From Terricaulis silvestris (GTDB lineage: Bacteria; Pseudomonadota; Alphaproteobacteria; Caulobacterales; Aquidulcibacteraceae), in the NCBI RefSeq assembly GCF_009792355.1, contig NZ_CP047045.1, positions 558,001-622,000 of the forward strand: a DNA stretch of 64,000 bases. Direction: 5' to 3'. Below the pieces are notes generated by a model. That model did not search any database. It had not been told where the DNA came from and was given only the letters and a program-made list of their open reading frames with translations. The translations under genes were made by a program, and so were the position numbers. How positions within the stretch are numbered: position 1 is the first letter of the stretch; the number at the start of each line of letters is the position of its first letter. This document shows positions 4,440-48,800 of the stretch, one piece after another.

Positions 4440-4602
4440 AAACGGCGGCTCGTCTCGAGCTTGCCGAAGCGCTTGATGGCGGTCTCGCTCGCGGTGTGGT
4501 GCGGCCGGTTTTGCTTCAGCCTTCGGAGCTTTCCCGCTAGGCGACGCCTTGAATTGAACGTCCGCCTACAAGCACCATTTCGTTCGAACAGGAGGCGCTC
4601 CC

Positions 4603-5340
4603 ATGACGGGCATAGATGGCAAAGTGATCGTGATAACCGGCGCCAGCAGCGGCATCGGCCGCGCGGCTGCGCTATTGCTGGCGGGTCAAGGGGCGAAGGT
4701 CGTGCTCGGCGCGCGAGGCGGCGATGAATTGGAGGCTGTGGCGCGCGAAGTTCGTGACGCAGGAGGTAGTGCCCTTCATCGGCGCACCGACGTGTCGAAG
4801 CGACAAGACATGGCAGCGCTTGTCGCCGTGGCGACCGATTCCCATGGCAAGCTTGATGTGCTGATCAGCAACGCCGGGATCGGTCCCATCTCGATGCTCG
4901 CAGAATTGCGCGTCGAGGATTGGGAGGCGATGGTTGACGTCAACATCAACGGGTTGTTGTACGGTATCGCCGCCGCTTTGCCCATTTTTCGCCGGCAAGG
5001 CTCTGGGCATTTCGTCAATACGATCTCGACCGCGGGCATCCAGATGAGCCCGACCATGGCGATTTATGCCGCAACTAAGAACGCCGTGCGCACAATAAGC
5101 GAGGGACTGCGCCTCGAATCCGACGGCAAGTATCGCGTGACCGGCATCTCGCCGGGATTCGTCGGAACCCGTTTTGCCGAATCCATGACGGACGCGGGGG
5201 TCAAAGCAGAAATCCAGAAGCGCATGGATGAAATCGCGTTGGCGCCTGAAGCGATTGCCCGCGCGATGGCGTTTGCGATCCAGCAGCCGGACGATGTGGA
5301 CGTCGGCGACATTGTCGTTCGGCCCACCGTGCAGAATTGA
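4603..5340 (+). CDS. Short-chain dehydrogenase/reductase (classical SDR)
   Basis: 245-residue classical SDR. Rossmann motif TGASSGIG at residues 12-19, structural NAG in VLISNAGIG, catalytic Ser in STAGIQMSP and YAATK as the YxxxK motif, then the PGFVGT loop. The best relatives are NADP-dependent YdfG-like reductases of unknown substrate. Start ATG 4603 follows a strong AGGAGG. It lies 163 bp after the aldo/keto reductase in the same direction and may share its transcript. It ends 36 bp from a convergent SnoaL gene, with a shared hairpin between. Confidence 0.92.
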   Translation: MTGIDGKVIVITGASSGIGRAAALLLAGQGAKVVLGARGGDELEAVAREVRDAGGSALHRRTDVSKRQDMAALVAVATDSHGKLDVLISNAGIGPISMLAELRVEDWEAMVDVNINGLLYGIAAALPIFRRQGSGHFVNTISTAGIQMSPTMAIYAATKNAVRTISEGLRLESDGKYRVTGISPGFVGTRFAESMTDAGVKAEIQKRMDEIALAPEAIARAMAFAIQQPDDVDVGDIVVRPTVQN

Positions 5341-5373
5341 GCGCGGGGCGAGGTCTATTGGCTCGCCGCGCCG
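5341..5373. terminator. Bidirectional terminator-like hairpin
   Basis: GGCGAG (5347-5352) pairs with CTCGCC (5362-5367), and the stem extends outward through GC-rich sequence with one bulge. It sits between two convergent genes, which is where a shared terminator is expected. A clear T-run is absent. Confidence 0.5.
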
Positions 5374-5376
5374 CGC

Positions 5377-5796
5377 TCATTTGCTGATCTGTTCCACCGC
5401 AGCCATCCAGTTCTCGACGTGATACGCGGTTGCAAGCTTGCCGTTCTTTACCGTGAACAGATCGATCGAAATGGTCTTGAAGCTCTTGCCCGTGGGTTTG
5501 GCGCCGTAGAGGTCGCGCATCGGCGTGCCACTCGCCTCGCCGCGCACAACGATCTTGTCGTCAACGGTCTGGATCTCCTCAATGGTCCAACGCAGATCCG
5601 GTATGACCGCTCCGATGCCTTTGAACACCTCGGCCAGCTGATCGCGCGTCAGCCAGTCTTGGTTGGTTGAATATGATTTGTAGTCGGGATTGGCTGCTTC
5701 TGCCAACAACGCCGCTACGTCTTTGTCCGCGGGCCTGTTCAGCGCTTCATAGAGAGGGGCAACGATCCTTCGTGCTTCATCGACAGTCATGCCCAT
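5377..5796 (-). CDS. SnoaL-like / ester-cyclase family protein
   Basis: 139-residue single-domain protein of the SnoaL-like polyketide cyclase superfamily (NTF2 fold). Family features: N-terminal helix EARRIVAPLYEALNRPADKD, central IPDLRWTIEEIQTVDDKIVV, GTPMRDLYGAKPTGKSF and the closing strand FTVKNGKLATAYHVENW. Most such proteins are isomerases, cyclases or hydratases, or are uncharacterised. No signal peptide. The start at 5796 has AGAGGA eight bases upstream. It lies 39 bp downstream of the alpha/beta hydrolase at 5836 and is probably co-transcribed with it. Confidence 0.88.
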   Translation of the reverse strand: MGMTVDEARRIVAPLYEALNRPADKDVAALLAEAANPDYKSYSTNQDWLTRDQLAEVFKGIGAVIPDLRWTIEEIQTVDDKIVVRGEASGTPMRDLYGAKPTGKSFKTISIDLFTVKNGKLATAYHVENWMAAVEQISK

Positions 5797-5835
5797 AGGC
5801 GGCTTCCTCTTAAGTTCGTTGAATTTGCTTGGAGA

Positions 5836-6684
5836 TCACGTCCGGCCGCTCTGCGAGCGATAGGCGCCGTTCATCCAGACCGCGATCTCACCTGTGTAGC
5901 CGTCAGCGGCTTCTTCCCAAGCGCGGTGTTGGGCGTCGAGAAGCACGTAGTGGTTGCGAGGCAGTCGTTCGGCAAGGAATTGGCCGTTCGCTGCAGGTAC
6001 AATTGGGTCGTCTTTGCCGGCGATGATCAAGATCGGGGTGTCGATGCTTGAGAGCAGCGGCTCAAGCTTCGGAAGGTCGGGAATGTAATTTCGCACATAC
6101 TGCACGGCGTCTTCGAAACGCCGGCCCGCGGATGCCTTTCGGAAGTCTTCGATGATTGGCGCCGGCGTGAGTTCTGAAGCGTGCTTCAGATAGTCGCCCA
6201 CTGCCTCGGCGCCGTCGACGGTGGCAAAGGCGCCCGTCGGTGAATGGATCAAATCGTAGAGCACGCCCGCGGCCATCTCGGCGCGCAGGGCGCCCGATCC
6301 CAGAGCGATGCTCTCGAACAAGTCGCCCTTTTCGGCGGCGGCGAACAAAATCGCGAGCGCTCCGACATCGGGCGTGATCGCGTGCGCTCGGTTCACTTTG
6401 AAGTGGCTAAGCAGCTTGATGACGAAGTCGCCCATAGCCTTCGGGGCCATCACGTCGGGCCTGCTCTGCGAGAGCCCGAAGCCCGGCAAATCGACCGCGA
6501 TCAGAGGGTGCGTCTGGCGCAGCCGTGGAATGACATGACGAAACGCATAGATGCTCTCGGGCCAAGGCGCTGTGAGCAGGATGGGAACGCCATTAGCGGC
6601 GCCGCTTCGCGCGTGGCGGATGACGAGGCCGTCAATTTCCGTCGTGGAGACGGCGCCTATATCGGGAAGTGCATCGACGGTCAT
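5836..6684 (-). CDS. Alpha/beta hydrolase with Asp at the nucleophile elbow
   Basis: 282-residue alpha/beta-fold hydrolase. The usual GxSxG is replaced by HAITPDVGALA, placing Asp at the nucleophile position as in epoxide hydrolases and haloalkane dehalogenases. The oxyanion region is PILLTAPWPESIYAFR rather than a clear HGxP. The late acid segment is IIAGKDDPIVP and the base is probably His in LDAQHRAWEE. Haloalkane dehalogenase- or epoxide hydrolase-like chemistry is therefore possible but unproven. It is divergent from a classical Ser hydrolase at 6799 across two palindromic operators and heads an operon with the SnoaL gene. Confidence 0.85.
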   Translation of the reverse strand: MTVDALPDIGAVSTTEIDGLVIRHARSGAANGVPILLTAPWPESIYAFRHVIPRLRQTHPLIAVDLPGFGLSQSRPDVMAPKAMGDFVIKLLSHFKVNRAHAITPDVGALAILFAAAEKGDLFESIALGSGALRAEMAAGVLYDLIHSPTGAFATVDGAEAVGDYLKHASELTPAPIIEDFRKASAGRRFEDAVQYVRNYIPDLPKLEPLLSSIDTPILIIAGKDDPIVPAANGQFLAERLPRNHYVLLDAQHRAWEEAADGYTGEIAVWMNGAYRSQSGRT

Positions 6685-12040: not shown

Positions 12041-12613
12041 TTAGCCACGGGCCCTGGCGACCGCCGAGGCAAAGTCGGGCGTTATTCCCATTTGAGCGTA
12101 GATGGTATTGACGAGGATGTAGCAGTCGAACCTCTCGATCTTGCCGTCGCGCAGATACCAGAAGTCGGCGCCCGGCGCGTCGATCCGCGCCCCCGTCGGT
12201 GGAACGATCCCGGCGGGCGTTTCGAGGGCCCTTGAGAAAGTGCCCTGAATCGAAAGTTCGATGGCGACGGTGTCGCCTGCCACATTCACCCGATGAAGCA
12301 CCCGATGAACATCGGGGAGGAAACGCGCGACGAGATGGAGGATGTCGCCGAGATGCTCGCCGCGAAACGTGTCGTTGCCTGCAGCGCTTGGCCCAATCCC
12401 CGCGTGGCCCAGATTGATCACGGCATCGTCGGCGAAAAGGGCGATGAAACCCGGTACATCAAAGACGTTCCCTTCCGCTGTCTGATAGGCACGCCGGACG
12501 ATCGCTTCGTTGTCGTGCGTTGCGGCCGGTTGCGCGCACGCGGCTGTGGCGATGAGAGGTGAGGTGAGCGCGGCGCCGACAAGTGCGCGTCGGTTCATCG
12601 GTTCATTCATCAC
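12041..12613 (-). CDS. Exported SnoaL/NTF2-like protein
   Basis: 190 residues. The N-terminus MNRRALVGAALTSPLIATAA is a signal peptide with a twin-Arg-like start and cleavage near ACAQP. The mature part is one SnoaL-like domain: IVRRAYQTAEGNVFDVPGFI, LFADDAVINLGHAG, TFRGEHLGDILHLVARFLPD, FWYLRDGKIERFDCY. Function unknown; such proteins are often putative isomerases or binding proteins. The ATG at 12613 or the internal ATG at 12598 could be used. It is 40 bp after the isochorismatase gene and probably in its operon. Confidence 0.85.
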   Translation of the reverse strand: MMNEPMNRRALVGAALTSPLIATAACAQPAATHDNEAIVRRAYQTAEGNVFDVPGFIALFADDAVINLGHAGIGPSAAGNDTFRGEHLGDILHLVARFLPDVHRVLHRVNVAGDTVAIELSIQGTFSRALETPAGIVPPTGARIDAPGADFWYLRDGKIERFDCYILVNTIYAQMGITPDFASAVARARG

Positions 12614-12653
12614 ACACTCCTCCGCAGTCGCGTTGATTGCCGATCGCCCCGCG

Positions 12654-13370
12654 TTATCTCCGCCGGGCGCGTGCGCGGAACATCGCGAGGAATTCCCGCG
12701 AGGTCATCGAACGCGCAACGAAGGGATAGAGGACGCCGACCATCTGTTGTGTGAGCGGCGGGCTCCCGGCCACCACCGCATCGGTCATGGCGTACATGCG
12801 ATAGCCAAGGTCAAAACCCGCCAGCAAGGTCGCATAGACGCACATGTCCGCCGTAAAGCCCGCGACGGCGACATTGTGGATGCCGCGCGACTTCAGAAAG
12901 AAGTCGAGGGGATTGCTGCCGAAGCCCGACATCGTTTTGCGGTCAGGAAAGACTACATCGCTGTCGTGGCGGATGGGCGCGTAGAGCTGTGCGCCTACGC
13001 TGCTGGATTTGAAGGCCTGCCACTGGACGGCGTTGCGATGAAATGTGGCGCCGTTGCCCATGTCCACTTCACGGTAGTCATCGGTGTAACCTTCCGTGAC
13101 GTGGATCACCTGGATCCCCCGCTCGCGGGCGCCGTTTACCAGAGCGAGCGAATTTTCGATCATGTGCGTGGCGCGGAACTGCTCGGCGAATGCCGCGTAG
13201 CCAGAACCTTCCGGTGACGCAAAGTTGTTCTGGAAATCGACCATGACCACGGCGGCCTCACCGGGCGTCAAGCTCTCGTCGACTGTCTGCGCCTCGCTGG
13301 ATGATGCAAGGCCCATCGCCGTGATGGAGGCGAGGCCGGCCGGAACAACGGCACGGCGGGTTATCGACAT
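12654..13370 (-). CDS. Exported isochorismatase-family cysteine hydrolase
   Basis: 238 residues from ATG 13370 (AAGGAG upstream; a longer frame from 13478 is not used). MSITRRAVVPAGLASITAMG is a Tat-type signal peptide. Catalytic residues of the family are visible: Asp in AVVMVDFQNNF, Lys in FPDRKTMSGFG and the nucleophile Cys in VAGFTADMCVYAT. These enzymes hydrolyse amides, vinyl ethers or nicotinamide-like compounds; here a periplasmic location is predicted. It is the first gene of a likely unit with the SnoaL gene and the patatin. Confidence 0.9.
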   Translation of the reverse strand: MSITRRAVVPAGLASITAMGLASSSEAQTVDESLTPGEAAVVMVDFQNNFASPEGSGYAAFAEQFRATHMIENSLALVNGARERGIQVIHVTEGYTDDYREVDMGNGATFHRNAVQWQAFKSSSVGAQLYAPIRHDSDVVFPDRKTMSGFGSNPLDFFLKSRGIHNVAVAGFTADMCVYATLLAGFDLGYRMYAMTDAVVAGSPPLTQQMVGVLYPFVARSMTSREFLAMFRARARRR

Positions 13371-13489
13371 CGCGAACTCCTTGGTTTCCGGCGACCTCGC
13401 CGTGATCTCAACTAGGGCTTTGCGCGCCTGCGTTTGCGCCTGCGGGCCGGGCTCAACCAGATTGCTTTCGCGCGCCACGGGGCAACGAG

Positions 13490-13520
13490 TCTTTCCCGCA
13501 ATTGCTGAAGTTTTGACCGC
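13490..13520 (-). repeat. 31-bp dispersed repeat, copy A
   Basis: Read on the minus strand it starts GCGGTCAAAAC and ends GCGGGAAAGA. It matches copies at 14622, 25753 and 27203. On the opposite strand it can encode FPAIAEVLTA. It lies between genes. Confidence 0.7.
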
Positions 13521-13616
13521 TTTCGCGCGCAGCGCGCTACTTTGATCCCAGCCCCTGCTGCGCGTGTTGTCTTGGGGTCATCGGTTTGTTCGTCGATGAC
13601 GCGAACGCCCTCGAGA

Positions 13617-13680
13617 ACCGTCTTCTGCACAGAGTGCATGGCGTCACCGACACGATTGCCGCTGCGATGACGATCAAGTC
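13617..13680 (-). pseudogene. Remnant of an MFS transporter C-terminus
   Basis: About 64 bp closely resemble the 3' end of the MFS gene at 14788-14850: minus-strand GTCATCGCAGC, GTGTCGGTGA and GTGCAGAAGACGGT are shared. The remnant reads LIVIAAAIVSV, then after a frameshift MHSVQKTV, against YIVIAATLVSV and YFVQKTV in the intact gene. Both lie downstream of a copy of the 31-bp repeat on the plus strand, so a module of repeat plus MFS tail seems to have been duplicated and decayed. Confidence 0.6.
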
Positions 13681-13685
13681 GGGCT

Positions 13686-14558
13686 CTACGCACTCTTCAG
13701 AAATGCGTCCCAATCCAGCGCCGTCACCCAGGACTCAAAGGTTTGAAACGTGACATCGGGAAACTCGCGGCGGAGCGAGGCGCGATCCACAGTAAAGCCG
13801 ATGCGGTCAAACCATTCGTACATCTTGGCAGCATCCTCGCCCATGCCTTTACGGATGACATCGAGCGGAACCTGATAGTAGGTGAAGGTGCGCCCGGCGA
13901 CACGCGAGAGAATATCGACGACGTCATTTCCCGTAAGCTCGTCGCCCGCTAGGTCAAAGCGCTTGCCTGTGAAGCGACCGGCGTCCTCGAGAACACGAAC
14001 AGCGACCGCCCCGATGTCCGCGACGGCGATTTGTGCGAGCGCCCTCGTCGGCGGGAGCGCCGACGCGTACGTCCCTTGAGCGAGCTGCTCCTTACCGAAG
14101 GTGAGATTGTCCATAAAGTAGACCGGCGCGAGGATCGTTGCGCGCGCGCCGATCTCGGCAATGTGCTTTTCGACTTCGTACTTGCTGTCAAAGTGCGGAA
14201 CGCCCGTCTGTTGGTTGGCGGAGCCGACGGAATTGAAGACAAGATGCACGTCTGCCGCCTTTGCGGCGTCTGCGGCGGCGATGCCTTGTCGTGTCTCGGC
14301 GTCAGCGCCTCCTCCGAACGGCGTCGTCACGGCGAAGAGAGACGTCGCGCCTTCAAGCGCATTCTTGATCGCCGCCTCGTCGTCGAGCGACGCTGCAACG
14401 AGCGTCGCCCCGGCATCCGCGAGCGCCTTCGCGCGGCTTGAGCTGGGATCACGGGTCACCGCGCGGACTTTGTGGCCTCGCCCGAGGAGGTCCCGCGCGA
14501 CGGCGCCACCTTGATTGCCGGTGGACCCCATGACGACGACGGTGAGCTCATGCCCCAT
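13686..14558 (-). CDS. NmrA-like NAD(P)-binding protein
   Basis: 290 residues from ATG 14558 (AAGGAA upstream). An atypical SDR of the NmrA/HSCARG type: TVVVMGSTGNQGGAVARDLL is the GxxGxxG dinucleotide site, AVTRDP follows beta2, and LVFNSVGSANQQTGVPHFDS and YEVEKHI replace the classical YxxxK. The C-terminal part (LSRVAGRTFTYYQVPLDVIR) is family-typical. Relatives are redox sensors or quinone/isoflavone-type reductases. It lies between the two duplicated repeat/MFS-tail segments. Substrate unknown. Confidence 0.9.
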   Translation of the reverse strand: MGHELTVVVMGSTGNQGGAVARDLLGRGHKVRAVTRDPSSSRAKALADAGATLVAASLDDEAAIKNALEGATSLFAVTTPFGGGADAETRQGIAAADAAKAADVHLVFNSVGSANQQTGVPHFDSKYEVEKHIAEIGARATILAPVYFMDNLTFGKEQLAQGTYASALPPTRALAQIAVADIGAVAVRVLEDAGRFTGKRFDLAGDELTGNDVVDILSRVAGRTFTYYQVPLDVIRKGMGEDAAKMYEWFDRIGFTVDRASLRREFPDVTFQTFESWVTALDWDAFLKSA

Positions 14559-33050: not shown

Positions 33051-33890
33051 TCAGTTGCGATTGAGCCCCATCTCTCGGCTCTGCAGTTTGATTTTCCAGC
33101 GTGACTCCATCGACAGAATGTCGTCGAGGCTTGCTGCTGTTCCGGCCGTTTCCAGAATCGAAATGCGATAATCACTCGGATCGCGGTTCTTTAAGCCCAC
33201 GTTGCCGCCGTGACCTGAGCGCGCATATTCGAGCCAACGACCCAGAAAGCCATCGGCGCCGTAGGCGGATCCGACGTAGTGCTCATTCGTGCGTGAGCAT
33301 GAGAGCAAATAGACGCCGCAATGCGAGGCGAGTTTGCTCGCCCACGCAGGCGGAAGCGCTTCGACTTGGCTCAGAGAGCACATGAACTCCAACAACCCCG
33401 GAAACACCGGCTCCTCACCCGTGCGCCTGAGTTCGATCACCGATTTGTCTTGAGCCTTGGCTTGCTGCACCCATTGGCGCAGCCCGTCGCCCCAATCGAT
33501 GTAGAGTAGACCCGCAAAGGCCTTCAGCGCCTCAAGCCGCTCAAGCGGAAAAACATTGTCGATGCCGGCGGCAACGACGTTTCCCGAAAGCGGCGAGGTC
33601 CAATCCGTGACGCCTGAAACGGGTGCGCTCGCCCGGTAAAGGCCAACGAACAGCGTATCGCCTGCGGGCGTCCCCACGAAACTCGCCCACAGCGGGCGAT
33701 TGAAGCGAACGCGACCGGTGCGGCGTTGACGGCTTTGGTAATCCTCGAAAGCCGTGAGATTTGTGCGCCAGAGATCATAGATGGAGCGTCCCGGCCGCGT
33801 GCGCGCATCCTGGTGACGAAGCAGCAGCGTCTGTTTGGGATCAACGCCCGCGTCGCGCAGCAGCACATTGAACGTCAGCATGGCTGGCAC
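33051..33890 (-). CDS. GIY-YIG nuclease with a long N-terminal domain
   Basis: 279 residues. The C-terminal third (about 190-279) is a GIY-YIG domain: HCGVYLLSCSRTNEHYVGSA supplies GVY and YVG, GRWLEYARSGHGGN the Arg, and SMESRWKIKLQ with GLNRN the metal-binding Glu and end motif. The N-terminal 180 residues (LTFNVLLRDAGVDPKQ, RHQDARTRPGRSIYDLWR, ASFVGTPAGDTLFVGLYRA) are a conserved but unnamed domain. Stand-alone GIY-YIG proteins include restriction enzymes and repair or mobile nucleases. It is divergent from a controller-type XRE regulator; no methyltransferase is nearby. Confidence 0.88.
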   Translation of the reverse strand: MPAMLTFNVLLRDAGVDPKQTLLLRHQDARTRPGRSIYDLWRTNLTAFEDYQSRQRRTGRVRFNRPLWASFVGTPAGDTLFVGLYRASAPVSGVTDWTSPLSGNVVAAGIDNVFPLERLEALKAFAGLLYIDWGDGLRQWVQQAKAQDKSVIELRRTGEEPVFPGLLEFMCSLSQVEALPPAWASKLASHCGVYLLSCSRTNEHYVGSAYGADGFLGRWLEYARSGHGGNVGLKNRDPSDYRISILETAGTAASLDDILSMESRWKIKLQSREMGLNRN

Positions 33891-34043: not shown

Positions 34044-34247
34044 ATGGACGTGCGCCGTCGCCTGGCACGAAATCTGGTTCGCTTGCGGCACGATCGTGGC
34101 CTCTCGCAAGAGGAGCTGGCTGCCGAAAGCGAGCTTCATCGCACTTACATATCCGGGCTCGAAACTGGCGGACGCAACCCCACCGTCCTTGTGCTGGAGC
34201 GACTGGCCAAAGCGCTCAAGACGACGCCGAGCAAGCTGTTGGAATAG
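34044..34247 (+). CDS. XRE-family regulator, C-protein-like
   Basis: 67-residue single HTH: VRRRLARNLVRLRHDRGLSQ, EELAAESELHRTYISGLETG, GRNPTVLVLERLAKALKTTP, ending SKLLE. Such small all-helical XRE proteins include the controllers of restriction-modification operons. A C-box-like tandem site lies just upstream, so autoregulation is likely. It faces away from the GIY-YIG nuclease across 153 bp. A truncated relative lies at 36580-36750 (same TYISG, RNPT and ERLAKALKTT blocks). Confidence 0.9.
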   Translation: MDVRRRLARNLVRLRHDRGLSQEELAAESELHRTYISGLETGGRNPTVLVLERLAKALKTTPSKLLE

Positions 34248-34773: not shown

Positions 34774-36264
34774 TCAGCGGCGGTCGGACGCTGAGCCTAC
34801 TATCGCGTCGCCGGTGCGCAGGGCGAGTGCGATGATTGTAAGACCGGTGTTTAGCGCGCCAGCCGAAGGTAGGACCGATGCATCGGCGACGTACAATCCT
34901 TGGACGCCGTGGACAGCGCCAGCCGGATCGACGACGGAGGTCCTCTCGTCGCGCCCCATCACAGCGCCGCCGGTCTCATGCCAGAACGCCACGGATCCCG
35001 GCGCGCGGATCACCGGATAACCCGCTCTCTGAAATGCCTGCTCGGTGAGTGTGCGGAGTTTCGCGTAAGTTTTTGCCTGGTGGCGCGGCGTGGTGTAGGC
35101 GGCGATCCTATCGCCGTCGAACGCCCAGCCCGTGCCTTCGTCCGGCGTGGCCTCAGTCATGTGGACGACGGTTAGGCTGTGCTCTGCGATTGCCTTGACG
35201 ATCGGCTGCTTCAGCTTGTGTGTCATCCGCCACATCGGCACTTGGCCTGAGACCTGCGCGACACCCAGAGGGTAGGGCCAGCCTGGCGCGCCTTCGTACC
35301 AGAGGTTGATAGCGAACGTCTTGGTATGGCGGGGGCCGAGGCGCTTCAGACTGATCAGGGGAAATAGCGTGCCTGCCGAATGCCCTCCCACCCGCAAACC
35401 GAGCTGACGGGTATTGTTGCCAATCCCTTCGCGATGCTGGTCAGTCCGCGAGCGCCGCAGCAGGAGCGCCGAATTCGGCGTTCCGGCCGCCACAATGACT
35501 GCGTCGGCCAGCACCCGATGCTGCTGTCCATTGCGTGTCAGCAGAACACCCTCAGCGCGTTTGCCGTCGGAGGTCAGCAGAATGCGCTGGCATTCGGTCA
35601 AGGTCATCAGCTCGACGAGGCCGGTTGCCATCGCTGGTCGCAAGGCGGCGGTCTCGGCATCCATTTTTGCATCGCGCCGGCAGATGTGCGCATCGCATGC
35701 AGCGCACATCACGCAAGCTCCATTTGGGCCCAGATCGAGGCCGCGGGGAATCGGGGCGGAAGAAATGCCCTTGGCGCTTAGGTTTGCGATTACCTTTGCA
35801 ACAGCCGGATCATGCGAAAGCGGCGGATGCGGATAAGGCGCAGCGCGGCGCGGCTCGCTGGGGTCGCCATCGGAGGATCCATGCACACGATAGAGCGCCT
35901 CGCCCTCGGCATAGTAGGGTTCGAGGACGTCATAGCCGAACGGCCACGCTGGCGAGACGCCGTTCTCGAGTTGCCTTTCGTGAAAGTCGCTTTCTCGATT
36001 CCGATAGAGGGCCGCTCCGTAAAATTTTGTTCGGCCGCCGACATATGAAATGTCGTCTGCAGGGGCGAGCAGATCATAGAGATAGTCGTTGTCGTGCGTG
36101 CCTGGCTTTGGGCGAAACCAGTCGCCGCGTTCGACTACCAGCACCCGCCGTCCCGCCCGTGCGAGGCGCAAGGCCAGGGTCGATCCACCAAGGCCGCTGC
36201 CCACGATCACCGCATCGTAAGAGCTTGCGGGCTTTTCGACACTGGTCCCGACATGCATGCCCAC
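34774..36264 (-). CDS. GMC-family oxidoreductase with a four-cysteine cluster
   Basis: 496 residues, FAD-dependent. DAVIVGSGLGGSTLALRLAR (17-36) binds ADP, VIVAAGTPNSALLLRRS is the second GMC motif, FWHETGGAVMGRD provides the catalytic His and VADASVLPSAGALNTGLTII the C-terminal signature. Residues 184-195 (GACVMCAACDAHIC) carry four cysteines at 184, 187, 190 and 195, as in the cholesterol-oxidase-like and fatty-alcohol-oxidase-like GMC branches. No close functional partner is adjacent: its neighbours are a kinase fragment and a truncated XRE gene, so it may be cargo in a rearranged segment. Confidence 0.9.
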   Translation of the reverse strand: MGMHVGTSVEKPASSYDAVIVGSGLGGSTLALRLARAGRRVLVVERGDWFRPKPGTHDNDYLYDLLAPADDISYVGGRTKFYGAALYRNRESDFHERQLENGVSPAWPFGYDVLEPYYAEGEALYRVHGSSDGDPSEPRRAAPYPHPPLSHDPAVAKVIANLSAKGISSAPIPRGLDLGPNGACVMCAACDAHICRRDAKMDAETAALRPAMATGLVELMTLTECQRILLTSDGKRAEGVLLTRNGQQHRVLADAVIVAAGTPNSALLLRRSRTDQHREGIGNNTRQLGLRVGGHSAGTLFPLISLKRLGPRHTKTFAINLWYEGAPGWPYPLGVAQVSGQVPMWRMTHKLKQPIVKAIAEHSLTVVHMTEATPDEGTGWAFDGDRIAAYTTPRHQAKTYAKLRTLTEQAFQRAGYPVIRAPGSVAFWHETGGAVMGRDERTSVVDPAGAVHGVQGLYVADASVLPSAGALNTGLTIIALALRTGDAIVGSASDRR

Positions 36265-36579: not shown

Positions 36580-36750
36580 AAAGAACGGCGGGCCGCGCGC
36601 GGCTGGTCGCAAGAGGATTTGGCCGCGGCGTCGGGACTTGATCGGACCTACATTTCCGGCAATGAGCGGAAAGTCCGCAATCCGACGATCGAAATCGTTG
36701 AACGGTTGGCCAAGGCGCTGAAGACGACCGCCAGCGCATTGTTGGAGTAA
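36580..36750 (+). pseudogene. XRE-family regulator, 5'-truncated
   Basis: Immediately after an in-frame TAA the frame reads RGWSQEDLAAASGLDRTYIS then GNERKVRNPTIEIV, ERLAKALKTTASALLE and a stop. This is helices 2-5 of an XRE/C-protein-like HTH, close in pattern to the intact gene at 34044. The first helix and start codon are missing. It ends 19 bp before the terminase fragment. Confidence 0.75.
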
Positions 36751-36769: not shown

Positions 36770-37498
36770 TCAAAACATCCCCACGGTCGTTCCAGATTGC
36801 GCGACGTTGCCGACCTGACGCACACGATAGCGCGTGTCATCGCAGGCATGATCTTCAGCGTTCTTATTTGGCCGATCTAAATCGCTGTCGTCGCGCGCCA
36901 TGGTCGGCACCGTGCGCAGGAAGCCGTCCTTGCAAAGCTCCGTGACGAACAAGCCTGGAAATTCACGCGGGCGGCCATCCTTGTTGGGATGGGCTTGCTT
37001 CATCATCTTGCGCATCATTTCGCACCCGCCCACGACCGAACCGTCGCGCTTGTCGGCGGGGATCCATTGGACGCCAGGGTAGGTGTTATCTCCGATGCGC
37101 ACCGGCCGACTCATGTCTTGGGCGATGGAAACGCCATTCTCAAAGTTGAAGATGGCGCTATCGGCTGGGCCCATGCGCACGACGTCATAAATATTCCAGT
37201 CCAGTTCACGCTCGACGATGCCGCGGGCAATGTCGACCGCGAGCATGCGCTTGCCCTGGTTGGGCTGGCCGGTCCAACCATACCATTCCTGCATGCGGAA
37301 GAGATCGCCCTTCACGGTGGAGCGCCATTTGCCGTTGATCTTCGCATCCGAGCCATCGGACTCGGCCCACCAGGCGACGCTAAAAGGCGCTGACGAACCC
37401 CAGTCGAACGAACGATTGATGCGCCACGATTTCGGCGGCTGAAACGCCGGCACAATGTTGTGGCGCCGATCCCAAACGTCATCGAACAGCCCGCCGGC
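36770..37498 (-). pseudogene. Phage terminase large subunit, 3' fragment
   Basis: About 243 codons of the C-terminal nuclease domain: GLFDDVWDRRHNIVPAFQPP, SWRINRSFDWGSSAPFSVAW (first acidic residue of the RNase-H-like site), GKRMLAVDIARGIVERELDW, IYDVVRMGPADSAIFNFENG and SVVGGCEMMRKMMKQAHPNK. The ATPase half is missing: upstream of about 37500 the frame is antisense to a metallo-beta-lactamase-fold gene. It is the only clear phage gene in the window, a prophage scar. Confidence 0.8.
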
Positions 37499-37501
37499 GA
37501 C

Positions 37502-38086
37502 CACATCCCAATCGCCATCGCGGCGTCGGCGACGGTCGAGGCGATCAAGGCGAGCGTTGACAGCAAGCTTGCCATCTGGGGACTGCAACTCAAGGAGCAT
37601 GGACCGCAAACTCTTGCTGACATCGTGATGCCCGAGTCCTATGACGCAGCGACACTTACGGTCGATGGCGAAGCCATTGAGATTGTGGACGCGAACGGCA
37701 TGCCCAACCGCCGTTACCTGTGGTCGCCGACTTTGCGGGCGGTCTTTGGCGGCGTGCTGATCTTCTCGGGAGTCCACGTTTGGACCGCTGACACAAAGGG
37801 CGCAGAACAACGCGCCGCGTGGCGCTCCAATCTCGACGCGATCGCGGCCCGGGCGCCCGACGTCGTCGTGCCGGGCCACATGGCCACTACTGCGAAGCCC
37901 GACGCCTCCGCAATCGCACACACAAAGGCGTGGCTCGCGGCCTTCGAGCAAGAACTACCGAAAGCAAAAGACGCTGCAGCCCTGATCGATGCAATCAAGG
38001 CGCGCTATCCCGATGCCGATATGGGGATCGCCATCGATATCGGGGCAAAGGTCGCGAAGGGCGAAATGGCCTGGGGTAAACCGTAG
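37502..38086 (+). pseudogene. MBL-fold metallohydrolase, 5'-truncated
   Basis: About 194 codons: ATVEAIKASVDSKLAIWGLQ, MPESYDAATLTVDGEAIEIV, FGGVLIFSGVHVWTADTKGA and DVVVPGHMATTAKPD (C-terminal metal His), ending IGAKVAKGEMAWGKP. The N-terminal half with the HxHxDH zinc motif is absent; the sequence switches to the terminase fragment at about 37500. The family includes SoxH-like and Vmh/quorum-quenching-like MBL proteins. The apparent ATG at 37460 is antisense terminase, so no authentic start remains. Confidence 0.8.
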
Positions 38087-38503
38087 GCGTCAAAACCAGC
38101 TCAACACCGAAACGAACGAAGAAGTCGCACTGGCGAGCCTGCACCGTGAAACTGAACATGCGATGAGGCGGCCCACGGTTGCTTCCGGCGATGTCGCCGG
38201 AGGAGGAAATTGTCGAACGTCTGTTTTGCGACGTATCTGAGCCGACGACTGCTGTTGGGATCAAGCGGCAGGGAAGGCCGCTTCGATCCATTCGTAAGAA
38301 CGGCGGATCGGCCAGGATTGGCTTGAAGCTGACACTGAGTGTATTTGAAGCGCACCGGGAGGGCGCTTCAAGCCGAGCGTTCGTTGAAGACCCTCTGGCG
38401 ATTGTCGCAAGTGCCAGATACCGTCCGCCTTGGCGCGGCTAAATCATGCATCTCACGTTGGGCGATCGCGCGACCACTTCGTTTGGGGACATCGGACGAC
38501 GTT
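38087..38503. promoter_or_regulatory. Leader region of the TIR-TPR gene with competing hairpins
   Basis: 417 bp without a supported gene. At 38320-38374 the 3' arm GCGCTTCAAGCC can pair either with GGCTTGAAGC (38320-38329, 10 bp, using GCTTCAAGCC at 38365-38374) or with TTGAAGCGC (38345-38353, 9 bp, 9-base loop, using GCGCTTCAA at 38363-38371). The two stems exclude each other, an attenuator-like layout about 130 bases before the TIR start. Open frames here have no family match. Confidence 0.45.
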
Positions 38504-40006
38504 ATGGTGGACGTATTCATCTCTTATCGCCGGACGCAGCGGGCCAAGGTGGAGCCGATCAAGCAGAGACTTGAGGCGTTAGGTCTCGAAGTATTCTTCG
38601 ATATTCAGAGCATCGACGGCGGTGCCGACTTTTCCAATACGATCAACGACAACCTCCGCGGCTCAAAGGTTGTCCTCGCTTGCTGGTCCGGGCTCTATTT
38701 TGAGCGTCGTCCTCCACCCGATTGGTGCAAATCCGAGTGCGACTTCGGGCTCAAAGAGGACAAGTTGATTCCAGTAGTCATTGAGCCCTTCGACGTTGCA
38801 GCGCAGCCAGTAGAATTTCACCGAACGCATTACTTCGACCTCAGCGATTGGGCAGGCGAGCAAGAACACGAGGGATGGCGGCGAACGCTGCGAGAACTGT
38901 CGCGCCGTCTTGATCGTGAGCTTCTTCACCAAGTGAAGAATGATCCGCAAGACGCGGCGTTTTTTCTCGATCGAGGCAATGCTCACCTTGAACAAGAGGA
39001 ATACGAAGCGGCCGTTGCAGACTACACTGAAGCCGTCCGGCTCAATCCGGATGATGAATGGGCATCCTATAATCGCGGGCGCGCCCATGCTGGCATGGAG
39101 GACCATGCTCGCGCCATCGAGGATTTCAACGACGCCATACGGATCAATCCTGATGCTGAGTGGACGCTGTACAATCGCGGGCTCTCTCATTTGAGCTTAG
39201 AGAACTATGCTCGCGCCATTGATGACCTCAACGAGTGTGTACGGCTCAACCCAGAAATCGCCGAGGAGGCAGAGACCGCATTAGTGGCGGCTTTTCTCGG
39301 CAGCGGTGATGCCCATCTCGAGCAAAGGGAGTACGAAGCCGCCGTTGCGGACTACACAGAAGCAATTCGGCTCAGTCCGCACGACGAATGGGCGTTCTAC
39401 GATCGCGGGCGTGCCTATGCCGGCTTGGAGGATTTTGCGCGCGCCATAGCGGAATTCAACGAGGCCACTCGGCTCAAACCGGAAATGGCGACATGGGTCG
39501 ACGCGGAGATTGCGACGGCTTTAATTGGTCGCGGCGACGCTTATCGTGAGCAAGAAGAATATGCAGCAGCCGTTGCGGACTACAGCGAGGCCATCCGGCT
39601 CAGTCCCGACGAGGCGTGGGCCTTCATCGGTCGCGGTGACTCTCGTCTTGAGCAAGAGCAGTATGCGTCCGCCATTGCGGACTACACTGAAGCCATCCGG
39701 CTCTGTCCCGACGAGGAGTGGGCCTTCATCGGCCGCGGCGACGCTTATCTTGAGCAAGAAGAATATGCAGCAGCCGTTGCGGACTACAGCGAGGCCATCC
39801 GGCTCAGTCCCGACGAGGCGTGGGCCTTCATCGGTCGCGGCAAGGCTTATCTTGAGCAAGGGGATTACCGTCCCGCCAAATCAGACTTTGAAGCGGCGGC
39901 GCGACACAGTCCGTCAGTGGCGTTGGAGTTTAAGGAGGAGTTCGAGAGGGCCTTCATGGGAGCAGCGGCCCGGATGAGCGTCCCAATGACGAAAAGTTCG
40001 ACGTAG
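38504..40006 (+). CDS. TIR-domain protein with nine TPR repeats
   Basis: 500 residues from ATG 38504, which starts exactly at the TIR fold. TIR (1-130): VDVFISYRRTQ box 1, GLEVFFDIQSIDGG, and PDWCKSECDFGLKED with the likely NADase Glu at residue 78, then LIPVVIEPFDV. Then nine TPR units of 34 residues (AHLEQEEYEAAVADYTEAVR pattern), two with short insertions. TIR-TPR proteins are known or suspected NAD-cleaving immune effectors; the TPR array would sense a partner or invader protein. Soluble, no TM. It is preceded by a hairpin leader and convergent with an unknown membrane protein. Function as antiphage defence is an inference. Confidence 0.9.
   Translation: MVDVFISYRRTQRAKVEPIKQRLEALGLEVFFDIQSIDGGADFSNTINDNLRGSKVVLACWSGLYFERRPPPDWCKSECDFGLKEDKLIPVVIEPFDVAAQPVEFHRTHYFDLSDWAGEQEHEGWRRTLRELSRRLDRELLHQVKNDPQDAAFFLDRGNAHLEQEEYEAAVADYTEAVRLNPDDEWASYNRGRAHAGMEDHARAIEDFNDAIRINPDAEWTLYNRGLSHLSLENYARAIDDLNECVRLNPEIAEEAETALVAAFLGSGDAHLEQREYEAAVADYTEAIRLSPHDEWAFYDRGRAYAGLEDFARAIAEFNEATRLKPEMATWVDAEIATALIGRGDAYREQEEYAAAVADYSEAIRLSPDEAWAFIGRGDSRLEQEQYASAIADYTEAIRLCPDEEWAFIGRGDAYLEQEEYAAAVADYSEAIRLSPDEAWAFIGRGKAYLEQGDYRPAKSDFEAAARHSPSVALEFKEEFERAFMGAAARMSVPMTKSST
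39530..39840 (+). repeat. Recent duplication inside the TPR array
   Basis: A segment of about 107 bp at 39530-39636 recurs at 39734-39840 with essentially one base change (CGTGAG versus CTTGAG). The offset is 204 bp, exactly two TPR units. The unit between them (39637-39733) is more divergent. Confidence 0.85.
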
Positions 40007-40163
40007 ACTTGACGATGTTATGTGTCGGCGAGTTTTCGCCTGTCATCGCAAGCTGGGCCAACGTCCGCTTTCCGGCAGCAGGTTGTCGTTCGGCGCGAAC
40101 GTCGGCTTCTGTGATTGAACGGCTGCCGCGATTTCTCTCGGTGAGGGGCCACTGAACTGGTCA

Positions 40164-40823
40164 TCAGCTTTTGCAGTGCGTCGCGTCGCGTCGCGTCGGC
40201 GTCGAAGCGTGCCACCGTAACAGGCGAACCTCTACCTGAACTGCATTGCCCGGCCGCGGCATGTGCGTGATCACATTGAACGCTCGGTCCTTCATCAACA
40301 ACGACTGCAGCTCGGGCCAGCCGCCAGGTATCCATGGGATCGGCGGCATGGGCGTCGCTTGCGCCTCGATCCGACACCAGACCTCGTCTCGCCCCAACGC
40401 GTCCCATCGGAGAGTAACGTATGAACCCCAATCCCCCTGCGTGACTTTGAAAGGGATGGGCTTGCCGTTGTCTTCCGCCCTCACCGTCGTAGTGAAGATG
40501 ACCTTGTCGTTGAACGTGTAGGTGCGATCGCGCCAATTTCCGTCACGCTTCTCCTCCGTCAGCGCCTTCGTCCACGCGGACACGGCATCCCAAACTGCGA
40601 TTACGGCAACACCGATCAACGGTGCAGCCAGCACCACGGTCCAATCCGCTCCGGTCATATTCGCGCTCACTGCGGCGGTGACGCACGCGATGACAATTCC
40701 CCGAAGGATCAACCTCGGGAAATCTTGCCAGAAAAGCGTCCAAGCGCGCTCACGGCGTGCCCGGAATTTGATCCGCCAAAGTGGTTGCTCAGTGCCGCTT
40801 ACGCCCGCCATGCCAACGCACAT
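40164..40823 (-). CDS. Membrane protein of unknown function
   Basis: 219 residues, no family recognised. Basic N-terminal stretch (IKFRARRERAWTLFWQDF), then two hydrophobic segments, LILRGIVIACVTAAVSAN and VVLAAPLIGVAVIAVW, then a soluble C-terminal part of about 130 residues (TFNDKVIFTTTVRAEDNGKP, WDALGRDEVWCRIEAQ, RAFNVITHMPRPGNAVQVEV) that looks like a beta-rich domain. It ends 157 bp from the end of the convergent TIR-TPR gene. ATG 40823 is used; ATG 40811 is equally possible. The 2-TM plus cytoplasmic-domain layout resembles YcxB-like proteins, but this is only a guess. Confidence 0.65.
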   Translation of the reverse strand: MCVGMAGVSGTEQPLWRIKFRARRERAWTLFWQDFPRLILRGIVIACVTAAVSANMTGADWTVVLAAPLIGVAVIAVWDAVSAWTKALTEEKRDGNWRDRTYTFNDKVIFTTTVRAEDNGKPIPFKVTQGDWGSYVTLRWDALGRDEVWCRIEAQATPMPPIPWIPGGWPELQSLLMKDRAFNVITHMPRPGNAVQVEVRLLRWHASTPTRRDATHCKS

Positions 40824-45817: not shown

Positions 45818-48800
45818 ATGAGCCGGACAAAGACGCCGCTTCTGATCACAACGGCCACCGCGCTCTTTGCGGCGGGCGCGAGCCTCGCGGCTGCGCAGGA
45901 GCCGCCGGCTCAGGCGCCGACTACGGCGGAGGCGGACACTGAAGACCCCATCGTGGTCGTCGGCACGCGCATTCAAGGCGCGAGAACGACCGACGCGCTG
46001 CCGGTCGTGGTCTTGAGCGAAGATCGGATTGCAGCAACGGGCGCGACCAGCGGCGACGATCTGTTGCGTTCAATCCCGCAAATGGGCGATGTGCTGTTCG
46101 AGGCGGCCAATAATCCGCAAACCTCCAATTCCGCACGCGGCGATGTGAACTCGGTCAACCTTCGCTCGCTGGGCGTCGGCAATACGCTGGTGCTTTTGAA
46201 CGGCCGGCGCATGGTCCAGCACCCGACGAGCCAAGGCACGTCCGACACCGGCACTGTGCCGGTGCAAAGCTTCAACTCCAACGCCATCCCGGTGTCTGGT
46301 CTCGATCGCGTCGAAGTGCTGCTCGATGGCGCGGCAGCGCTCTACGGGTCGGACGCCGTTGCGGGCGTCGTCAACACGGTGCTGCGCAACGACTTCGACG
46401 GTTTGGGAGCGAGTGCGCGGTATGGTGGCGCCGAAGGGACGGAGCTTCGCGAGTTCGACGCCGACATCTACGCAGGCCACACCTTCGGCAACGGCTCGAT
46501 CTCGTTCTTTCTAAACTATTCCGATCGCACCGAACTCAACGCCGCCGACCAGGATTTCACGGCGAGCGACGACATGCGCCCCTTCTTTTCGCAATATCCG
46601 GGATACGAAACGTCGAACGTTCCCGATGGTCGCTCGTCGAACGCGCCCTGGGCGCAGCTCGCGGTGCCAGCCACGACCACGGCTTTGCGCCCACGTTCGA
46701 ACGGCGTTGTCGTGACAACTGCGGCCGGCGCCTTTCACGTGCAACCGGAGAGCTTCGGTTGCGTTGGCGCCGATCTGGGTGACCTCTGCCTCGTGAGCGG
46801 CACCGTCGCATTCAGCGGCGTTAATCGCGAGATGCGCTACGACACGCGCCACGAAACGACCGTGCGTCCAGCAGTCGAGCGCTTCAACATGTACTTGACC
46901 GGTGAGTTCGAACTCACGCCCGATCTCACCTTCTTCAGCGAGATCGGCTATTACGAAGCCGAAAGCCGCGCGATGCAGCCGCCCGTGGTGAATCTGAACG
47001 CGATCTGGATTCCGGCCAGCAATTACTGGAATCCGTTCGGGCCGATCACCTTCACAGACGGGTCGGCAAACCCAAATCGCTTGCCCAATTTGACCAACGT
47101 GCCGGCGGCAGGCTTGCCGGTCCGATTGACCAATTATCGCTTCGTCGACACCGGCTTCCAGGAGGTCGTCGTCCACAACTACCAATCTCGCTTGCTGGCC
47201 GGTCTGCGCGGTGAAGTCGGCGGCTTCGACTGGGAATCTGCGCTTTTGTATGCCGAGGCCGAGGCCGAAGACACCTCGCCCAACATCAACATGACTGCGC
47301 TCCAGGCTCAGCTCGCACTGTCGACGCCGGACGCCTACAACCCGTTCAGCGGTGGTTGCGTCGCAACGACGAGTTTCGGCGATTGTTCGCCTTCGTCGCA
47401 AGCTGCCATCGACGCGATCAGCTTCGACCTTCGACGCGTTTCGCGCTCGAGTCTGGCAATGGCCGACCTCCGCTTCTCAAGGAACGATTTATTCAGCCTG
47501 CCGGGCGGCAATATCGGCGTAGCGATCGGCGGCGAAATTCGCGAGGAACGGCAAAGTGACGACCGCGATGCCAATCTCGACGGCACTAACACCTTCGTCG
47601 ACATGGTGACCGGCGAGACCAATCTAAGCAACGTCGCCGCCGTCAGCCCCAATCCGGATACGAAGGGCAGCCGAACCATCACGGCCGCCTATGTTGAATT
47701 TGCAGTACCGATCGTTTCGCCGGACATGAACATCCCGTTGGTCCATGCGCTCGATCTGCAGATCGCTGGACGCGTCGAGGACTATTCGGACTTCGGGTCA
47801 GTCGCCAAACCGAAGTTCGCGCTGGCGTGGGACGTGTTCGACGGCCTTCGCTTCCGCGGCTCTTACTCCGAGGGCTTCCGCGCGCCGAATCTGGAACAGG
47901 TCAACGCCACACAATACTCGCGCCTCGCGACCGGCACGGATTTCTATCGCTGCGAAGCCGATCTGCGCGCCGGTCGTATCGCGACGATGACCGCGTGCAC
48001 GCGAAGCGGCAACAGCTCACTCCTGATCGCCGGCAACCCCGATCTCGATCCGGAAGAGAGCACCAACCAATCGTATGGCATCGTCTTCCAGCCGCGCTTC
48101 ATCCCTGAAGGGCTCGGCGATTTTACCTTCACGATCGACCGTTGGAAGATCGAGCAGGAAGATATCGTCGGTCTCTTGGGAGCGCCGACCGCGCTCGCGC
48201 TCGACTATCTCAACCGCGTCGAGGGCGGATCGAATCCCAATGTCGTGCGCGAAGCGCCGGACGCCGACGATGTCGCCATATTCGCTGGCACGGGTCTCGA
48301 TCCGGTCGGCGAAGTTGTGTCGATCAGCGACCGCTTCATCAATCTGCTGCCGCAGACGGTGGAAGGGATCGATTTTGGCTTCAACTGGGACTTGCGGCGC
48401 ACCCCGTTGGGCAGCTTCAGCGTCGAACTGAATGCATCGCAACTGATCGAGTTCTCGCGCGAGCCTGGGGCGATCGTCGATGGCCTCTACGCCGCTCGCG
48501 ATGCGGGCACGATCGATGCATTGACGCCCTTGCCGGATTCCAGAGAACTCATCGCGCAAAATGGACGCCCTGAGTGGCGCGCGTTTGGCGCCTTGACCTG
48601 GCGAACCGGTCCTTGGCGCGTCGGCCTTTCCGCGAACTATGTAAGCGAGATCGAGCAGCCCGCGCTGTTGAGTTCAACCGGCGAACCATGGGTCGTCGAT
48701 GAACAGCTCATATACAATGCGTACGGGCAGTACGAGTTCGACAACGTCGCGTTGGGCTCTGACGCGCGCGTGCGACTGGGTGTTCGGGATTTGACCGATG

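Follow-up and report, generated by a model that had tools for sequence, protein, structure and literature searches.

A TIR-TPR fusion gene of Terricaulis silvestris as a candidate single-gene sensor-effector

Among the described systems that come closest to the locus considered here, SpbK of the Bacillus subtilis element ICEBs1 carries a helical N-terminal domain that binds a phage portal protein, leading to TIR assembly and NADase activity (PMC12847820), and DSR2 combines an N-terminal SIR2 NADase domain with middle and C-terminal domains that bind a tail-tube protein (PMC11087589). Enzymatic TIR domains are described as requiring both the Glu and self-association. The subject of this report is a gene of Terricaulis silvestris whose product, the TIR-TPR protein, joins an N-terminal TIR domain to nine TPRs, and which lies in a 64,000-nucleotide stretch of DNA (positions 558,001 to 622,000 of contig NZ_CP047045.1; the whole stretch is referred to as the window). 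Among the matches listed for open-access papers, none was found to describe experiments on a bacterial TIR-TPR protein that lacks an NTPase. Taking together the evidence set out below, we see about an even chance that the gene is an accessory one whose product combines a TIR NADase and a TPR sensor in a single protein and would work like SpbK or DSR2. Throughout, L numbers denote loci and G numbers genomes, and the "own" genome is the one carrying the window. The gene and its two parts are laid out as follows.

38504..40006, plus strand: TIR-TPR gene, 500 amino acids, a candidate single-gene sensor-effector (Pfam domains, repeat layout, base composition)
38504..38947, plus strand: TIR domain with W74 and E78, plus linker (TIR_2, E=1.6e-21; SARM1 the best sequence match among solved structures)
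38948..39913, plus strand: nine TPRs, arranged in three blocks of repeats 1-3, 4-5 and 6-9 (the DNA of repeats 6 and 8 is 88% identical)

The open frame extends over 38339-40006 from a GTG start, and an internal ATG at 38504 is the likely start of the gene. In Pfam, TIR_2 (PF13676) matches residues 4-126 of the product at E=1.6e-21 (77.5 bits against a curated cut-off of 28), TPR_1 matches at E=1.3e-62, and TPR families cover the rest of the protein. The repeats are 34 residues each and together span residues 149-470, repeats 3 and 5 each being followed by an 8-residue spacer, a layout that bears out the fusion of a TIR domain to nine TPRs reported in the preliminary description of this DNA. 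That description also proposed E78 as a plausible NADase residue, and the alignments agree with a catalytic role: E78 is the Glu of a W-x3-E motif, is invariant in 15 of 15 aligned rows and, together with W74, aligns with the Trp and Glu of the DWVHKE motif of SARM1 (the closest solved structure by sequence, E=3e-5), whose Glu we take to be the catalytic residue. Repeats 1 and 4 are 70% and repeats 2 and 5 64% identical in amino acids, and a 102-bp tandem array at 39527-39860 lies inside repeats 6-9; the TPR array thus seems, judging from these likenesses, to have grown through repeated duplication, some of it recent. No hydrophobic segment exceeds the usual threshold, and we take the protein to be soluble. 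No NTPase family was matched in Pfam at E<=0.01. The GC (guanine plus cytosine) fraction of the gene is 0.576 (0.55 in the TIR part) against 0.618 for the window, only one of 124 segments of 1503 bp having a lower value, and the codon score is positive (0.098 per codon). Scanning for promoters returned none, and scanning for terminators returned 5 against 2.8 expected.

By analogy with the described systems, the TIR-TPR protein would act in the following way. In the resting cell its N-terminal TIR domain, cleaving NAD+ or making cyclic ADP-ribose when active, would be held inactive, and the C-terminal TPR solenoid would bind a trigger that is probably a protein of phage or other foreign origin. 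Trigger binding would cluster the protein, allowing TIR domains to pair and the active site to form, and the paired domains would consume NAD+ and stop the infected cell (abortive infection). The domains, the position of the Glu and the lack of a TM segment are read directly from the protein, and the patchy occurrence, the atypical GC, the clade with its mixed C-termini, the decayed element and the nearby UzuA gene described below are likewise observed, whereas the enzyme activity, autoinhibition, trigger and abortive outcome are transferred from the systems it resembles.

The gene is of patchy occurrence. A query with its TIR part finds matches in 41 of 61 genomes (the own genome and 60 related ones, including those of eight TIR relatives), but no second TIR-TPR protein was found at E<=1e-25 among 59 other family genomes, where at most 25 candidates were scored per genome and the remaining matches are TIR alone or TPR alone. 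In a set of 385 genomes of the class, seven other genomes match the protein at E<=1e-35, all with TPRs and no TIR; since only four candidates were scored per genome, this is weak evidence of absence. Nor was there a second example in 48 loci from a pattern scan of the species genomes, which used two short peptide patterns and lets TIRs without them escape, and among 106 TIR-bearing frames (loci L011-L054 and L065-L112) only the window gene also carries its type of TPR. TIR searches of viral contigs and phages gave no relative, and the plasmid search gave two weak matches, from Paraburkholderia.

Phylogenetic placement puts the window TIR in a well-supported group with varied C-termini. In a reduced tree of 69 rows, obtained by dropping 10 long-branched and 20 Sphingomonadales rows from a first tree of 99 TIR rows (from which own L045, L048, L049 and L053 had been excluded by limits on length and score), it joins nine other rows in a set supported at 100/98, which is recovered as a single group by 100% of 200 bootstrap trees; with all 99 rows the same 10 members are obtained, at an SH-aLRT (Shimodaira-Hasegawa-like approximate likelihood-ratio test) value of 99. 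Addition of L125 (G451; 70 rows) makes a clade of 11 with support of 100/99, apart from the widely kept TIRs, its members being the window gene, L065, L011 (=L066), L012 (=L067), L013, L125, L014, L017, L027, L068 and L070. Trp-x3-Glu is kept in all of the first 10 members, and L125 reads WVRIE. The C-termini comprise the TPR array of the window gene, an FGE-sulfatase domain in L066, L068 and L027, and a Toprim_C_rpt match in L067; L065, L013, L014 and L017 show no Pfam family above cut-off besides TIR, and L070 ends shortly past the TIR domain, with a next open reading frame (ORF) that has no family. This accessory clade appears to keep the TIR enzyme and mostly to change the C-terminal half. 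Own L040 and L042, whose C-termini look TPR-like by eye, fall in another clade, so TIR and TPR-like repeats have seemingly been joined more than once. More tentatively still, and with the chances rather against it, the clade may be a family of alphaproteobacterial immune proteins not described before, encoded by single genes and free of an NTPase, in which a TIR chassis would carry exchanged C-terminal sensors (TPR array, FGE/C-lectin-type and others) and the TIR-TPR protein would be a recent in-lineage fusion with repeats still turning over.

The region upstream of the gene adds further context, summarized in the following features.

33051..33890, minus strand: UzuA of the Uzume anti-phage system (PADLOC PDLC03973, E=1e-74, residues 4-279 against model positions 2-278 of 278)
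34044..34247, plus strand: HTH regulator, divergent from UzuA (HTH_3, E=9.5e-15)
34774-36264: GMC oxidoreductase (Pfam scan)
36580..36750, plus strand: truncated second copy of the HTH gene, a remnant (reading frame; DNA of the stretch matches congener G003)
36770..37520, minus strand: 3' half of a gene for a terminase large subunit (751 bp aligned with L064:8066-8816 at 91.3% identity)
37460..38086, plus strand: truncated Vmh-type MBL-fold gene (NF040580, E=5.6e-50, model positions 106-286 of 286)

UzuA is full-length and lies 4.6 kb upstream of the TIR-TPR gene, a neighbour that the preliminary description had overlooked; a review counts Uzume with the systems whose mechanism is unknown, referring to Doron 2018 and Millman 2022 (PMC12926258). 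The prophage scar that the description placed at 36.8-37.5 kb proved to be the terminase fragment, whose translation matches 516 phage records (all below 60% identity) and whose longer counterpart lies in the own genome at L064:8066-9637. The MBL-fold gene, likewise missing from that description, scores 170 bits, below the model cut-off of 430, with its first third gone, and the TIR-TPR gene starts 417 bp past it. In our reading of these genes, Uzume belongs to a decayed element of phage origin that spans 33.0-37.5 kb, and the TIR-TPR gene stands immediately outside it. On the other side, the NtrC-type regulator downstream is matched at E<=1e-100 in none of 29 congeners, so the downstream flank is variable too. 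ARAGORN reported a tRNA-Tyr at 46894-46992, which was considered as an island boundary and rejected as probably false, being inside a 1024-codon frame that resembles a TonB receptor by eye.

The UzuA family itself is patchy, with a match in 5 of the 61 genomes, the own genome (which has two copies) included and two of the five having fragments only. In L140 (the second own copy, which also has a DUF5681 gene) and in L142 (G018), a ParB-methylase gene is found no more than about 2.5 kb from UzuA; in L141 (G003) apparently the same genes, judged by eye, and a terminase-like gene without a Pfam match adjoin it, and in L143 (G011) a UzuA fragment stands beside DUF5681 and methylase genes. Together with the HTH gene that accompanies some copies, this suggests, with neighbours partly identified by eye, that Uzume of this genus travels on a phage-derived cassette.

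Defence genes near the TIR loci were sought with PADLOC among 28 window proteins between 20.1 and 58.6 kb; 63 of 90 called non-TIR genes of L065, L068, L070, L058, L060, L062 and L061; 19 of 21 called genes of L067, L063 and L059 (best 25 of 40 families); and all 104 called genes of at least 100 amino acids at 14 other own TIR loci (best 25 of 35 families). Eight of the 11 clade neighbourhoods were covered, some of them on short contigs (L059 5.3 kb, L068 9.3 kb), leaving out L066 (a 3.6-kb contig), L027 and L125. Within the clade, L067 (G011) is an island with an integrase, a TIR-ParA protein, AbiTii and the TIR clade member. Genes at L067:10439-12298 and 12295-13725 are SPARSA-type by position, an assignment made in this way because the PADLOC tables for pooled proteins name the first member alone. 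L014 (at L059) has short genes, one with a by-eye counterpart in L067, and no assignable defence gene among those scanned. Matches at 1e-20 among the seven relatives are to models for NtrC-like, DnaG-like and FtsH-like proteins plus one mad2, which in our reading are housekeeping look-alikes. Among the loci that do not belong to the clade, L063 carries a CBASS cyclase together with type I restriction-modification genes, and L060 and L061 have no assignable defence gene among the genes scanned. The other own TIR loci yielded one pAgo, UvrD-type helicase models and PDC-M53B among the best-scoring families. At own L048:4493-7542 a TIR protein (4493-6016) precedes what is probably this pAgo, its probable partner, in a likely SPARTA system, and a TIR-ParA protein is also present in the own genome (L049).

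Several of these observations weigh against an immune function. PADLOC gave the TIR-TPR protein itself weak and partial matches only (best 8.7e-8), and a recognised defence gene was found in only two of the eight clade neighbourhoods, the window (UzuA) and L067; L065, L068, L070, L058 (=L013) and L062 (=L017) have no assignable defence gene among the genes scanned. The truncated MBL-fold gene intervenes between the TIR-TPR gene and the decayed element, and the gene is therefore placed beside rather than inside it. The chance that any one gene lies this near to one of 16 TIR genes is estimated at about 4.5%, and at about 9% for two UzuA copies, so that the proximity of UzuA, at an estimated chance of 0.045, is only suggestive. 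L013 and L125, from two genera, are 48% identical over about 400 residues and stand outside the other nine (98/82); being alike throughout, they indicate that not every clade member changes its C-terminus (both have a TIR domain, a hydrophobic stretch by eye and a C-terminal part, which is without a Pfam family in L013). Near-consensus TPRs without a TIR domain are common in the genus, and since no other genome has the exact fusion, no sign that it is under selection can be seen. Finally, 28 of 30 genus genomes contain a match at E<=1e-40 to the TIR-DUF805 protein encoded at L041:5173-6111, and the widely kept TIR proteins of the genus share the same Glu and look like housekeeping proteins.

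The last of these points leads to the strongest competing explanation, which we consider somewhat improbable, that the TIR-TPR protein serves signalling or scaffolding in ordinary physiology, its TPRs binding a cellular partner and its TIR domain acting as an adaptor or as the maker of a stress messenger. Apart from the breadth of TIR-DUF805, this explanation is favoured by the number of TIR proteins in the own genome (17 TIR_2 matches in 16 proteins with very different C-termini, the 15 besides TIR-TPR having been overlooked earlier), by L040, a TIR-TM-TPR protein of the own genome whose TIR part matches in 18 of 30 genus genomes with the own one included, and by the occurrence of TIR, DUF805 and TPR modules in several combinations in the genus. 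For TIR-DUF805, 20 of 29 congeners have one match over most or all of the length at 56-67% identity, and a second TIR gene adjoins it in many of them; in the own genome the tandem TIR genes lie at L041:4079-6111 (C1:2673-2675 kb), TIR-DUF805 being accompanied by a TIR protein with a hydrophobic stretch seen by eye. Kept in nearly the whole genus, this tandem pair is apparently a non-defence use of TIR, and the literature search found no paper with both "TIR domain" and "DUF805". A further combination is seen at L114 (G028), where DUF805 is joined to a TPR array that shares 47% identity with the window TPRs. Against a role in ordinary physiology, the TIR domain of the TIR-TPR protein lies outside the widely kept TIR clades, no orthologue was found in the genomes searched, and the gene has low GC and an accessory neighbourhood. 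Because of the 15 further own TIR proteins and the breadth of TIR-DUF805, a TIR domain alone means little, and the general argument that any bacterial TIR is immune was discarded as support, TIR-DUF805 being too widely kept; the six clade neighbourhoods without an assignable defence gene weaken it as well. For the wider field the caution is that, with some TIR proteins kept in nearly all genomes of this genus, defence is poorly predicted from TIR content by itself.

Alternatively, the gene could be a passenger or a recently formed fusion that does little or nothing and was left next to element remnants. The single occurrence of the fusion, the truncated genes adjoining it and the recent look of its tandem repeat copies would all agree with such an origin, which is nevertheless unlikely given that the frame of 500 codons is intact, its codon score is positive, the active-site residues are kept and the TPR spacing is regular.

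The remaining alternative concerns the neighbour of the TIR-TPR gene.

40164..40823, minus strand: 219-amino-acid ORF with two hydrophobic segments, judged to be outside the TIR-TPR unit

The ORF is convergent with the TIR-TPR gene, with 157 bp between them, and it has two hydrophobic segments and, as first described, belongs to no recognised family: there is no Pfam, NCBIfam or PADLOC match, and the best PHROG match is at chance level (E=0.089). It occurs in the own genome alone in both the 61-genome set and the class set of 385 (the two sets overlap), and it has no relative in plasmids, viral contigs or any fetched locus except its own. Its codon score of 0.014 per codon falls in a range that holds both shadow ORFs and weak genes, for which reason it may be no gene at all. 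A two-gene unit, with this protein as membrane partner or effector of the TIR-TPR protein, had been raised earlier and would have adjacency and the hydrophobic segments in its favour, but convergence, the weak coding signal and the lack of relatives in 60 related and 384 class genomes make it highly improbable, and on the same distribution the ORF is probably not a conserved partner.

Of the immune unit first proposed, what stands is thus a single gene: an accessory TIR with a conserved Glu and repeats, near an element remnant and UzuA, with a clade-mate (L067) in a defence island. The association with defence islands is mixed, UzuA and the L067 island standing on one side and the six neighbourhoods on the other. 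The immune reading of the TIR-TPR protein is a plausible one, to which UzuA, the decayed element and the clade lend further support. If it is true, a compact sensor-enzyme layout without an NTPase joins bacterial TIR immunity, and a clade with different sensors on one TIR makes trigger specificity directly testable.

Compared with named TIR systems, the TIR-TPR protein falls outside Thoeris, CBASS/Pycsar, SPARTA and the NTPase-bearing TIR-TPR group, because a defining feature of each is missing. For Thoeris, the ThsB model matches only at 1.2e-5 and partially, and no ThsA model was found at E<=1e-5 among the 28 window proteins; CBASS or Pycsar with a TIR effector was set aside in the absence of a cyclase model in the same proteins at the same threshold. 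For SPARTA, the C-terminus is TPR and not APAZ, and no pAgo model was found among the 28 proteins; the TIR-NLR/Avs type (STAND) was rejected for lack of a central NTPase domain in Pfam at E<=0.01. Plant and bacterial TIR-NB-ARC-TPR proteins share the order of an N-terminal TIR and C-terminal TPRs, but they have a central nucleotide-binding domain, of which Pfam finds none here (PMC9806590, PMC9153377). The TIR-FGE proteins (L066, L068, L027) belong to the same clade and also have an N-terminal TIR, whereas their C-terminal half is an FGE-sulfatase domain. SARM1 is closest by sequence among solved TIRs, with Trp and Glu aligned and with regulation through helical repeats (ARM repeats), but is an animal protein; its domain order is the reverse, and its regulators are nicotinamide mononucleotide (NMN) and NAD+, not a known invader. 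SpbK is likewise a single gene with a TIR and a separate helical domain, and is itself an NADase with a sensing domain on a mobile element; it differs in having its sensor first (a 4-helix bundle), its TIR last and the YonE portal as trigger, where the TIR-TPR protein has the TIR first and nine TPRs after it. DSR2 is larger and has SIR2 in place of TIR, but it presents the order proposed for the TIR-TPR protein, in which an N-terminal domain would consume NAD+ and a phage protein would be bound farther along the chain.

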